From assembly GCA_014055495.1 (NCBI GenBank), contig WIAG01000014.1, positions 1 to 64,000 on the forward strand: 64,000 nucleotides of DNA. The letters run 5' to 3'. The position numbers and the translations under genes were made by a program. The notes beneath the pieces were generated by a model that was not told the origin of the DNA, did not search any database, and worked only from the letters and a program-made list of their open reading frames with translations. Numbering within the stretch: position 1 is the first letter of the stretch; each line of letters begins with the position of its first letter. Source of the DNA: Nitrospira sp. CR1.2. Its GTDB lineage: Bacteria > Nitrospirota > Nitrospiria > Nitrospirales > Nitrospiraceae. Positions 5,352 through 9,310 of this stretch are shown one piece after another.

Positions 5352-6473
5352 CTACAGAATCACCAAATTGTCGCGGTTGATGACCTCTTCGTACTCCTGG
5401 AGACCGGGGATCTTCTGGATATCGGCGGTCTTGAGGCCTTTGATCCGGGCGAGGATCGCGGAGGAGAAGTTCACCAGGCCTTTGGCGTATTCCTTGCCAT
5501 CCGGGCCTGTGCAGGTGACTGGGTCGCCCGCGTCGAACTGGCCGGTGATGTCGAGGATTCCCGAGGCCAGAAGACTCTTGCCCTTGCGTACCAGCGCCTC
5601 GACCGCTCCCTGATCCAACTGGACTTGGCCCCTGGGGCGTAGGGTAAATGCGATCCAATGTTTCCGGCTGTTCATGCGGCGTTCCCGGCCAAGAAACAAA
5701 CTGCCACCCGGGTGTCCGGACAGCACATCCGGGAGCAATCGTTCGTGAGTGCCATTCAGGATTAAGGTCGGCACCCCGTATTCGCCCACCTTTTTAGCCG
5801 CGCGCACCTTGGTCGCCATGCCTCCGGTCCCCTCAAACGTGGAGGACAGGCCTGCGCGCTGTTCGATGTCGTCGGTGATGTCGTGAATCAGCGGGATCAA
5901 GGTCGCGCTGGGATCTTTCCGCGGATCGGCGGTGAACAGACCATCCACATCCGACAAAATGACGAGGAGATCTGCATCGATGAGATGCGCCACCTGGGCT
6001 GCCAGTGTATCGTTGTCTCCGACCCGGATTTCTTCAACGGCAACGGTATCGTTTTCGTTGATGATGGGAACGACCCCGAATTCAATCAAGGTGGTCAGGG
6101 TGTGCCTGGCATTCAAAAACCGTCGGCGATCTGCCAGATCCGCATGCGTCAGGAGCACTTGCGCCACGCGGAGATTGAGGCGCTCGAAGGCCTTCTCGTA
6201 GGCCCACATCAACTGGCTCTGGCCGACTGCTGCGGCGGCCTGCTTGACCGGCAGGCTTTTGGGATATTCTCGCAACCCCAGCTTTTTAATGCCGGAGACG
6301 ACCGCGCCGGAGGAGACCACGAGCACCTCACGTCCCTGGGCGCGTATCTCGGCAATTTCTGCCGCAAGCCGTTCCAAGCGCTCGGCACTTAGCCCCGTCT
6401 CGCGCGAGGCGATGAGGCTGCTGCCGATCTTCACGACGACGCGCTTGGCGTGCTTTACGACTTCGTCTCGCAC
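5352..6473 (-). CDS. proB: Glutamate 5-kinase
   Basis: Phosphorylates glutamate in the first step of proline synthesis. The amino acid kinase domain begins with RVVVKIGSS and contains INENDTV and SDVDGLFTADPR. A PUA domain fills the last roughly 80 residues, as in E. coli ProB. I place the start at the GTG at 6473 (373 residues), which puts the kinase motif at the usual distance; it overlaps obgE by 19 bp. A second GTG at 6521 would add 16 residues and has AAGGA about nine bases upstream, so the exact start is uncertain. proA is not in the window. Confidence 0.95.
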   Translation of the reverse strand: MRDEVVKHAKRVVVKIGSSLIASRETGLSAERLERLAAEIAEIRAQGREVLVVSSGAVVSGIKKLGLREYPKSLPVKQAAAAVGQSQLMWAYEKAFERLNLRVAQVLLTHADLADRRRFLNARHTLTTLIEFGVVPIINENDTVAVEEIRVGDNDTLAAQVAHLIDADLLVILSDVDGLFTADPRKDPSATLIPLIHDITDDIEQRAGLSSTFEGTGGMATKVRAAKKVGEYGVPTLILNGTHERLLPDVLSGHPGGSLFLGRERRMNSRKHWIAFTLRPRGQVQLDQGAVEALVRKGKSLLASGILDITGQFDAGDPVTCTGPDGKEYAKGLVNFSSAILARIKGLKTADIQKIPGLQEYEEVINRDNLVIL

Positions 6474-7486
6474 GGGGTTGTTCGCAACGCCTCCACCTGC
6501 TGCCCCATGTAGCGGAGGCACTCGTCTAATCCTTCACGCGTGGCGGCCGAAATGGCAAAGAAGCGTATCTTGCGCCGTTGGCAGTACTTCTTGAGCTGTT
6601 CGAGCCGTTCGCCTTCGCCTTTGATGTCGAGCTTGGTGCCTACCACCGCGTAGGGGCGATCGGCAAGCGCAGGATCATACGCAGCCAACTCGTGCCGCAT
6701 GACTTTCAAGGCGGCGACCGGGTCTTCTGTGGCCCATTCGGAAATGTCGATCATGTGAATCAGCAGGCTGGTGCGTTCGATGTGCCGGAGGAACTGAAAG
6801 CCGAGGCCTTTTCCCTCATGCGCACCCTCGATCAAGCCGGGAATGTCCGCAATCACGAAAGTATGCTCGTTGCTTGATCGGACGACCCCAAGATTTGGTG
6901 TCAGGGTGGTAAAAGGATAGTCGGCAATCTTGGGCCGTGCAGCGGAGACGGCGGCAATGAATGTGGATTTTCCGGCATTGGGGTACCCGACCAGGCCGAC
7001 ATCGGCCAGGAGTTTCAGGTCGAGCCGAAGGAGGCGCTCCTCGCCGGGAGTGCCTGGTTCAAACTGAGTCGGGACGCGGTTGGTGGAGGTGGCGAACCGG
7101 GTGTTGCCGCGTCCCCCATGGCCCCCCTTGGCGACGATGTAACTGTCGCCATCTTCGGTAAGGTCGGCAAGAAGCTCTTGGCTGTTCGCGTCAAACACCA
7201 TTGTGCCGACCGGAACAGGGATGGAGACGTCGGTTCCGCGACGACCGTGGCAGTTGCTGCCGCCTCCGACCTCGCCTTTCTCCGCTTCATAGTGTTTCTG
7301 GTAACGAAGGTCCAGTAGGGTGGCGAGGCGAGTCGTGGCCTGAACGATGACGCTGCCCCCGTCTCCTCCGTCCCCCCCGTCTGGGCCGCCACGGGGCACG
7401 AATTTTTCGCGGCGAAAGCTGCAGGCGCCGTGACCGCCGTCCCCCGCCTTCACGAGAATCTGGGCTTGATCGACAAATGTGGACAT
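6455..7486 (-). CDS. obgE: GTPase ObgE/CgtA
   Basis: Essential ribosome-associated GTPase with a role in 50S assembly and stress signalling. The N-terminal glycine-rich OBG fold (about 1-158) is followed by a G domain with GYPNAGKST (P-loop), DIPGLIEGAHEG and TKLD. At 343 residues it lacks the variable C-terminal domain found in some relatives. The start is ATG with GAGGGG eight bases upstream, but that ribosome binding site lies inside a long predicted helix (see 7487-7562). It lies between rpmA and proB in the ribosomal-protein operon. Confidence 0.97.
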   Translation of the reverse strand: MSTFVDQAQILVKAGDGGHGACSFRREKFVPRGGPDGGDGGDGGSVIVQATTRLATLLDLRYQKHYEAEKGEVGGGSNCHGRRGTDVSIPVPVGTMVFDANSQELLADLTEDGDSYIVAKGGHGGRGNTRFATSTNRVPTQFEPGTPGEERLLRLDLKLLADVGLVGYPNAGKSTFIAAVSAARPKIADYPFTTLTPNLGVVRSSNEHTFVIADIPGLIEGAHEGKGLGFQFLRHIERTSLLIHMIDISEWATEDPVAALKVMRHELAAYDPALADRPYAVVGTKLDIKGEGERLEQLKKYCQRRKIRFFAISAATREGLDECLRYMGQQVEALRTTPCETKS

Positions 7487-7562
7487 CGCAACGTCCCCTC
7501 AGCCGGCGTAGTTATTCAGAAGCAGGAGTATACCGTATCCGCCGGCTCATGGGGGCGTTGCG
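7487..7562 (-). promoter_or_regulatory. Long inverted repeat enclosing the obgE ribosome binding site
   Basis: Bases 7487-7508 and 7540-7562 are an imperfect inverted repeat directly before the obgE ATG (7486). Seven outer pairs (CGCAACG against CGTTGCG) are followed by one A/C mismatch in the transcript, four G/C pairs, a 2-by-3 internal loop and eight inner pairs (AGCCGGCG against CGCCGGCT). The loop is about 31 nt. In the transcript the 3' arm contains the obgE GAGGGG site, so the folded RNA would hide it. No U-run follows, so this is not an ordinary terminator. Translational control is an inference. Confidence 0.6.
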
Positions 7563-7613
7563 TGAATGAAGGGTACCAGCACCGCGGGAGTCGTGGTCGG
7601 GACTGAGGAGAAA

Positions 7614-7877
7614 TTACGCCTTCGTGGACACCGGATACACGCTGACCTTTTGCCGGCCGCGTCCACCTTCAAACTTCACGACACCGGAGATATAGGCATA
7701 GAGGGTATGATCACGGCCCAACCCCACATTCAGGCCGGGGAAAAACTTAGTGCCGCGCTGGCGCACGATGATGGATCCTGCCTTGATGGTCTCTCCCCCG
7801 TAGGCTTTCACGCCGAGGTATTGCGGATTGCTGTCACGGCCGTTCCGTGTGGAACCGCCGCCTTTATTTGTTGCCAT
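7614..7877 (-). CDS. rpmA: 50S ribosomal protein L27
   Basis: L27 reaches the peptidyl-transferase centre of the ribosome. The N-terminal [19 protein letters not shown] and the block [10 protein letters not shown] are diagnostic, and 87 residues is the normal length. No N-terminal cleavage extension of the Firmicutes type is present. It follows rplU by 22 bp with AGGAG before the ATG. It precedes obgE by 127 bp, most of which is the inverted repeat. Confidence 0.98.
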
Positions 7878-7899
7878 GGCAAACTCTCCTTACGAGCCG

Positions 7900-8214
7900 T
7901 TACTTCGTTTCGATCCCGGTGACCCGCAGCTGCGTGAAGCCTTGCCGGTGGCCCCTGGTTCGCCGATAGTTCTTGCGACGTTGCTTCTTGAAGATCGTAA
8001 TGGAGCGGGTGCGTCCTTGGCGAAGAATTTCCGCCGTCACTGTTGCTCCGGCGACCACCGGTTGACCGACCACTAGGCCGCCAGCTCCGTGCAGCAGTCG
8101 AACCTTTTCGATCTGCACAGAATGCCCGACCTCGCCGGGAAGTGACTCCACTTGGAGCACGGTCCCTGCTTCCACTCGATACTGTTTCCCGCCTGTTTCG
8201 ATAATAGCGTACAT
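7900..8214 (-). CDS. rplU: 50S ribosomal protein L21
   Basis: L21 binds 23S rRNA in the large subunit. The sequence begins MYAIIETGGKQYRVEAG and contains the IFKKQRRKNYRRTRGHRQ basic block; 104 residues is standard. ATG preceded by GAGGAG. It is the first gene of the operon that runs to the lapB-like gene and lies divergent from ilvE. Confidence 0.98.
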   Translation of the reverse strand: MYAIIETGGKQYRVEAGTVLQVESLPGEVGHSVQIEKVRLLHGAGGLVVGQPVVAGATVTAEILRQGRTRSITIFKKQRRKNYRRTRGHRQGFTQLRVTGIETK

Positions 8215-8248
8215 GTTCGTTTCTTCTCCTCGTCAGCAGAACGTGCGT

Positions 8249-8277
8249 GTTTATCATAGGCGTCGCGAGAGTGTCAA
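8249..8277 (-). promoter_or_regulatory. Predicted sigma-70-like promoter of the rplU operon
   Basis: On the minus strand a perfect TTGACA (8277-8272) is followed after 16 nt by GATAAA (8255-8250, 4 of 6 matches). A short leader leads to the rplU ATG at 8214. The -35 is strong and the -10 only fair. This would drive rplU-rpmA-obgE-proB-nadD-rsfS and the lapB-like gene. Confidence 0.5.
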
Positions 8278-8358
8278 GAATAACTGCGTGTGCGGAACGA
8301 CGATCGCCACAGCGGGAGCGTCGCTGCATCCGGTTCTGATGATGGGAGGGGTGTTGCC

Positions 8359-8388
8359 TTGACGCTCATCGAGAGGCGCTGGTATTAT
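8359..8388 (+). promoter_or_regulatory. Predicted ilvE promoter (extended -10, leaderless)
   Basis: TTGACG (8359-8364), an 18-nt spacer, then TGG-TATTAT (TATTAT at 8383-8388), an extended -10 element. Only seven bases separate the -10 from the ilvE ATG at 8396, so transcription would begin at or one base before the start codon. Confidence 0.6.
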
Positions 8389-8395
8389 CCGGCGC

Positions 8396-9310
8396 ATGCT
8401 ACAAACCAGCGAAAAAATATGGATGGACGGCAAATTTGTCGCGTGGGCCGATGCACACGTTCATGTGCTCACCCATTCACTGCACTATGGCCTGGCAGCC
8501 TTTGAAGGGATCCGGTGCTACAAGGGGCAGAATGGCTCAGCTATTTTCAGATTGCGCGAGCATGTCGATCGGTTATTCGAATCGGCGCATATCGGCCTCA
8601 TGGAAATGCCCTACGACAGGAAGCAACTTACCGAAGCCATCGTCGAGACCGTCCGAGTCAACAAGCTGGAGGCCTGTTACATTCGTCCGTTGGTGTATAT
8701 CGGCTACGGCGCGATGGGTCTCTACCCTGGTGAGAATCCCATTCAGGTGAGTATTGCCGCGTGGAAGTGGGGGACCTATCTCGGAGATGAGGCGCTCGCG
8801 AAGGGAATTCGAGCCCGCGTGTCTTCGTTTACGCGCCATCATGTCAACGTCTCGATGACTCGCGGGAAGATCTCCGGCTACTATGTCAATTCGATTCTCG
8901 CCAAGCGGGAAGTCAAAGCCGATGGGTACGATGAAGCCATCATGCTGGACCCCGAAGGATATGTCGCAGAAGGTACGGGGGAAAATGTGTTCATTGTGCG
9001 ACGTGGGGTTGTAAAGACTACACCCCTCACCTCGATTCTGGAGGGGATCACGCGGAACTCAATCCTTCAACTGGCCAAAGAGCGTCAGATTCCGGTCGTT
9101 GAGGAGCGATTCACTCGTGACGAGATGTACGTGGCTGAAGAAGTGTTTGTCACCGGAACTGCGGCAGAAATTACGCCGGTGACCGAGATCGATCAGCGGC
9201 GCATCGGTACTGGTACCCCCGGTCCCATCACCAAGACCCTACAAAAGGCATTTTTTGACGTGGTAGGTGGAACAGATCCCGCTCATCGTCACTGGCTGAC
9301 TCCGGTGTAA
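8396..9310 (+). CDS. ilvE: Branched-chain amino acid aminotransferase
   Basis: PLP enzyme (fold type IV) interconverting Leu, Ile and Val with their 2-oxo acids. It starts MLQTSEKIWMDGKFVAW and contains HYGLAAFEGIRCY, IRPLVYIGYGAMGL and an AEGTGENVFIV block. K170 (in ILAKREV) fits the PLP lysine. 304 residues is the usual length. No Shine-Dalgarno sequence precedes the ATG and a promoter ends seven bases upstream, so the mRNA is probably leaderless. The gene stands alone, divergent from rplU. Confidence 0.95.
   Translation: MLQTSEKIWMDGKFVAWADAHVHVLTHSLHYGLAAFEGIRCYKGQNGSAIFRLREHVDRLFESAHIGLMEMPYDRKQLTEAIVETVRVNKLEACYIRPLVYIGYGAMGLYPGENPIQVSIAAWKWGTYLGDEALAKGIRARVSSFTRHHVNVSMTRGKISGYYVNSILAKREVKADGYDEAIMLDPEGYVAEGTGENVFIVRRGVVKTTPLTSILEGITRNSILQLAKERQIPVVEERFTRDEMYVAEEVFVTGTAAEITPVTEIDQRRIGTGTPGPITKTLQKAFFDVVGGTDPAHRHWLTPV

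Follow-up and report, generated by a model that had tools for sequence, protein, structure and literature searches.

The genes for the ribosomal proteins L21 (rplU) and L27 (rpmA) and for the Obg family GTPase ObgE follow one another on the minus strand of the window, the whole stretch of 64,000 nucleotides of Nitrospira sp. CR1.2 that was analysed (Table 1). Obg genes often stand together with rplU and rpmA. Here, the spacer between rpmA and obgE measures 127 nt, the last 76 nt of which are filled by a helix and its loop. A conserved hairpin over the obgE start, with a promoter-like sequence in its loop, is described here for a group of Nitrospira-like bacteria, and no published report of this element was found within the open-access literature searched. 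A preliminary description, made from the sequence, had placed two arms of 22 and 23 bases, about 31 nt apart, before the obgE ATG; these coordinates and lengths are right for the minus strand, as is the statement that the 3' arm holds the Shine-Dalgarno (SD) sequence of obgE.

Table 1. Genes and sequence features at the rplU-rpmA-obgE locus (positions in the window)
Feature	Position	Strand	Basis or remark
Candidate rplU promoter region, TTGACA-N13-TATGAT	8277-8253	minus	read off the upstream sequences of 27 genomes
rplU, ribosomal protein L21	8214-7900	minus	NCBIfam model TIGR00061
rpmA, ribosomal protein L27	7877-7614	minus	NCBIfam model TIGR00062
Stretch rich in C and poor in G behind the rpmA stop; may be a loading region for Rho	7613-7554	minus	
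5' arm of the helix, 23 nt; only in transcripts from upstream	7562-7540	minus	arm pairing and pair changes
Loop, 31 nt	7539-7509	minus	between the arms
Candidate extended -10 element TACGGTATACT; hexamer TATACT at 7532-7527	7537-7527	minus	conservation; in the loop
Predicted 5' UTR, 34 nt, for a putative start about 7 nt after the hexamer	7520-7487	minus	most genomes lack the usual purine start
3' arm of the helix, 22 nt; reaches the base before the obgE ATG	7508-7487	minus	arm pairing and pair changes
SD-like TGAGGGGA within the 3' arm, 7 nt before the obgE ATG	7501-7494	minus	
obgE, Obg family GTPase; ATG at 7486-7484	7486-6455	minus	NCBIfam models TIGR02729, NF008955

The helix in CR1.2 and its relatives

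On the mRNA strand, the duplex of the two arms has an energy of -40.7 kcal/mol and consists of 16 G-C and 4 A-U pairs without any G-U pair, interrupted by one bulge and two 1x1 mismatches. This energy was not matched when the arms were shuffled 300 times (z -5.7). In a scoring of 402 gene starts, taken from the window and from 400 kb of a relative, the helix ranks first, with the relative's own obgE start at rank 8. A general fold of 174 nt of the obgE mRNA contains the helix in its minimum free energy structure and shows no unusual stability (z -0.65); the evidence therefore rests on the arms and on the relatives, and not on overall stability. As the element occurs at one place only in its own genome (E <= 0.001), it does not resemble REP or MITE repeats, and in the region 6400-8400 it matched no Rfam family at E values up to 1, and thus no known riboswitch or ribosomal protein leader.

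From a genus sample of 29 genomes, obgE was recovered in 27 (G017 and G028 gave none), and in all of these it is preceded by rpmA, with spacers of 123-131 nt. In 23 of the 27 genomes the arm duplex is reached by at most 9 of 300 shuffles; the arms are not clearly better than shuffles in L018, L025, L026 and L027. Since in the obgE gene tree the helix-less L027 branches off first, followed by L025 and L026, the helix belongs to a crown clade of 24 genomes, one member of which (L018) has largely lost it. Many helices of the crown clade are broken by bulges. Between rpmA and the 5' arm, many members of the genus, for instance L016, also have a small TGTTCC-TAC-GGAACA-type hairpin; it is absent from the CR1.2 genome.

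Outside the genus, the helix was found in none of 16 outgroup spacers from other genera (z -1.0 to 1.6). For this order-level sample 20 genomes were taken in and eight more with an obgE match were left out; the automatic rule gave no spacer in L028, L039, L042, L043, L046, L047 and L051, of which L028 was read by eye, and the spacer of L030 was retained in the set with its obgE reading frame interrupted (164 aa). A wider contig search yielded 80 loci from distant relatives, with a best ObgE identity of 68% and no close member of the genus; 62 of these could be scored and 18 were skipped. Three of the scored loci, L069, L053 and L116, have a helix z of -3 or lower. The sequence of L069 looks like an array of short repeats, and that of L116 resembles an ordinary terminator. 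In L053, a Nitrospirae metagenome-assembled genome outside the genus, short TGCGTCT-like repeats pair with each other within about 100 nt before obgE (z -3.9), and this pairing may have a function or may reflect a repeat array. Two loci from a search of viral sequences did not enter the comparisons.

Because sequences of kin resemble each other anyway, the arms were evolved in simulations along the obgE tree, each column receiving as many changes as were observed, with indels fixed and without any rule for pairing. For the 24 rows of the crown clade (z -3.0) as for all 27 rows (z -3.8), none of 600 such runs attained the mean pairing energy of the real arms. Compared with shuffles, the fraction of paired cells is raised (82.5% vs. 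80.6 +- 0.5, and 22-52% in slid controls), as is the covariation score (0.143 vs. 0.104 +- 0.008, reached by 0 of 500 shuffles), and of the five shuffle measures two lack significance: both sides changed in 7 of 19 pairs, a number that 78 of 500 shuffles reach, and further pair types do not exceed the shuffles (369 of 500 reach the observed value). When arms were re-dealt among genomes, a comparison that is not corrected for kinship, the mean energy was -32.0 vs. -34.6 for the native combinations, with 0 of 20,000 permutations reaching the latter. Single pairs illustrate the changes. Pair 57-134 is G-C in 21 genomes, A-U in six and broken in none, and its A-U state occurs in L002-L006 and in L027, which are distant on the tree; the inner pair 77-120 changed from C-G to U-A twice, in L004 and in L021, and the sister of L021, L020, has the half-way state C.A. 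RNAalifold, run on an automatic alignment, found only the inner five pairs of the helix, gave the G-run another partner and placed other weak pairs elsewhere. A comparison of relatives for compensatory changes was the test that the preliminary description had set for itself, and the relatives do show covarying arms. In one clade the helix is real and under selection, and it is very probably its pairing for which it is maintained.

A G-U pair in the RNA of one strand corresponds to an A.C mismatch in the other, which offers a way to tell the strands apart. Over the 27 genomes, 25 G-U pairs occur on the mRNA strand vs. 42 on the opposite strand, so that the mRNA strand is not favoured; it has the better arm energy in just nine of the 27 genomes, and for the helix of the window the fold of the opposite strand is at least equally good. 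The simulation z for the crown clade was -3.0 on the mRNA strand vs. -2.4 on the opposite one. Pairing within the obgE message is the natural reading, given that the 3' arm forms the ribosome binding site; these strand data do not prove it.

A conserved hexamer in the loop

Conservation in the spacer is highest in the hexamer TATACT of the loop and not in the helix. The hexamer is present in 26 of the 27 genus genomes, the remaining one having TATATT, and lies 38-42 nt before the ATG in all 27. Its columns hold 2.0, 2.0, 2.0, 2.0, 1.77 and 2.0 bits, vs. 0.34 for the base just before it. It mostly follows TACGN, the full TACGNTATACT being present in 22 of the 27 genomes, and the loop contains further conserved bases, GAATAA. 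The four genomes with a weak or absent helix, L018 and L025-L027, have retained the hexamer.

The hexamer was also looked for in eight further genera of the family (L028, L029 and L031-L036). An exact TATACT stands 44 nt before obgE in two of these, L028 (read by eye) and L032; TATCCT or TATTCT is found at 46 and 48 nt in L034 and L035, and the other four have no similar hexamer at that distance. In L052 (Nitrospira sp. UBA2082, outside the genus set), TATACT was seen by eye 31 nt before obgE. In 228 sense upstream regions, taken from the window and the 400 kb of the relative, TATACT occurs eight times where 2.4 are expected, and three times in antisense. The longer TACGNTATACT is not enriched in its own genome, with three sites vs. 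two for the reversed control. One of the three sites, TACGTTATACT at positions 1501-1511 of L154, lies 21 nt before a 480-aa open reading frame with a strong SD-like AGGAGAGGAG, and may be another promoter of this type.

By its sequence, TATACT looks like the -10 element of an internal promoter of the extended -10 type. No TTGACA-like -35 element was found 16-18 nt upstream of it, and a simple promoter scan did not report this site. A purine 6-9 nt after the hexamer, where transcription usually starts, is present in only four of the 27 genomes; at 10 nt there is a purine in all 27. The persistence outside the helix-bearing clade is read here as a sign that the candidate promoter predates the helix.

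Upstream of rplU, TTGACA is conserved across the 27 genus genomes and TATGAT is replaced by TGTGAT in a few. The 13-nt spacer between them does not fit sigma-70, which may point to a displaced -10 element, another sigma factor or an activator. The conserved TTGACA makes transcriptional read-through from rplU and rpmA towards obgE plausible. Part of this read-through may be ended by Rho, the gene for which is present, at the C-rich stretch behind rpmA: the first 60 nt after rpmA contain on average 25 C vs. 10 G, and C exceeds G in 27 of 27 genomes. The genus also shares a conserved pyrimidine tract right after the rpmA stop (7613-7600, minus strand). Its sequence is mostly CCCTCCTCAGTCC, and it might serve Rho or form pairs with the G-run in the SD of obgE.

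Transcription start and translation of obgE

The cost of opening the start region of obgE (-18 to +13) was predicted for a long form of the transcript and for a short form without the 5' arm. Over the 24 rows of the crown clade the predicted means are 24.8 kcal/mol (long) vs. 13.2 (short), at which value the short form is still fairly structured, and over the three basal genomes 12.7 vs. 15.4. The difference between the two forms is at least 7 kcal/mol in 21 of the 27 genomes; judged by opening energy, a gate is weak or missing in L018, L022, L024 and L025-L027.

I consider it fairly probable that the rpmA-obgE spacer acts as a translational gate that is set by the start of transcription. A read-through transcript from rplU and rpmA, carrying both arms, would fold the long helix, and this would bury the SD and start codon of obgE, resulting in poor translation of obgE from the read-through message. 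A transcript from a promoter in the loop would start about 7-10 nt past the hexamer and carry the 3' arm alone, and as it could not form the helix, it would be translated. The synthesis of ObgE would then follow its own promoter and not that of the ribosomal proteins. That TATACT is used as a promoter, where its transcript starts, that read-through takes place and that ribosomes are blocked in the cell, I infer from these comparisons and predictions. More tentatively, the ribosomal protein read-through message could be silent for obgE, with the loop promoter giving the only well-decoded message, and the helix could have been built, within one genus, around an older promoter.

This reading departs in part from the preliminary description, in which a switchable or thermosensitive helix set the level of ObgE against L21 and L27. 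A link between these levels is possible, but it reads as an uncoupling from the ribosomal protein message and not as tuning by temperature, since in five sequences the predicted accessibility of the SD is nearly flat between 10 and 75 C. The earlier interpretation of the helix is thus partly supported. The promoter-like element in the loop was missed in it, and on account of this element the start of transcription offers a simpler switch than melting of the helix.

The helix could also be opened in the polycistronic message by a ligand, a ribosomal protein, ObgE or temperature. The conserved, SD-covering helix and the conserved GAATAA of the loop would suit such a regulated switch, but I regard it as improbable, given the flat response to temperature, the lack of a matching Rfam family, and the fact that the most conserved element of the loop is a -10-like hexamer that is kept where the helix is not. 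An RNA thermometer in particular was rejected, as about 20 mostly G-C pairs show no predicted melting in the physiological range in the five sequences. Hardly more probable, and if anything slightly less so, is cleavage of the read-through helix by RNase III or another nuclease, by which the arms would be separated, a monocistronic obgE message would become translatable and rplU-rpmA would gain a stable 3' end, with TATACT being incidental or a weak extra promoter. A processing site might look like the CR1.2 helix, which has 20 pairs, few mismatches and a place between genes of one operon, and the pairing of which is maintained by selection; the bulges that interrupt many of the crown-clade helices are less easily reconciled with it, and it leaves the near-invariant hexamer, which survives without the helix, unexplained.

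The lack of a strand preference in the pairing, together with the enclosure of a candidate -10 element by the arms, would be expected if the arms were an inverted repeat in the DNA that flanks the promoter and binds a regulator or affects the promoter DNA, the RNA pairing being a by-product. However, the pairing persists through unequal bulges and through a shifted register between clades, which is unlikely for copies of an operator, and I consider this explanation quite improbable. It is very improbable indeed that the hairpin is an intrinsic terminator or a plain insulation hairpin after rpmA. It is stable, G-C-rich and placed behind a gene, and the C-rich stretch upstream of it could serve Rho, but it extends to the next start codon, with the SD inside it, and no U-run follows it: the longest T-run in the CR1.2 spacer is 3 nt, in agreement with the preliminary description, and across the 27 genomes it does not exceed 5 nt.

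The proposed gate, set by the start of transcription, has relatives among known systems. In the fold-back inhibition of IS10/Tn10, read-through mRNA hides the ribosome binding site of the transposase and the proper transcript does not; there, a transposon is guarded against outside promoters, whereas the outside promoter of obgE belongs to the same operon. In enterobacteria, pyrC is a cellular gene whose SD is covered by a hairpin or left free depending on where transcription begins; the pyrC starts lie a few bases apart and are CTP-responsive, whereas those of obgE would differ by hundreds of bases and belong to different promoters. RNA thermometers, in which the SD lies within a helix, share this placement with obgE and differ from it by their melting. 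In nitrifiers, few cases of post-transcriptional control are known.

The closest likeness is to gene e of phage T4. Its long early transcripts form a structure that covers the ribosome binding site and reduces lysozyme synthesis 100-fold, and the transcripts from late promoters a short way upstream of that site are without the 5' strand and translated well; the leaders of soc, 49 and I-TevI are of the same kind (PMC3014915). At obgE, too, the ribosome binding site lies in a helix of the longer transcript, as predicted and as supported by covariation, and the working would be the same if the loop promoter is real, with no membership in the T4 group or descent from it being claimed. The T4 promoters are known and their timing is programmed by the phage, whereas obgE is a cellular housekeeping gene with a candidate promoter in the loop, and for it the poor translation of the long form and good translation of the short form are predicted from opening energies.

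If the proposed gate is real, a mechanism best known from phage T4 is used by a cell, and the principle of a long transcript that is not decoded has a bacterial counterpart at an essential gene for a ribosome-assembly GTPase. The shared order of the operon could then be kept with the amount of this GTPase still being set separately, and nitrifiers would offer a clear case that can be tested. It would also be a warning that co-transcription seen in RNA-seq need not equal co-expression.

On the plus strand, the sequence TTGACG-N18-TATTAT (8359-8388) stands before an open reading frame at 8396 and is kept in the relative G008 (L146); judged by its motifs, it is an ordinary sigma-70-like promoter.
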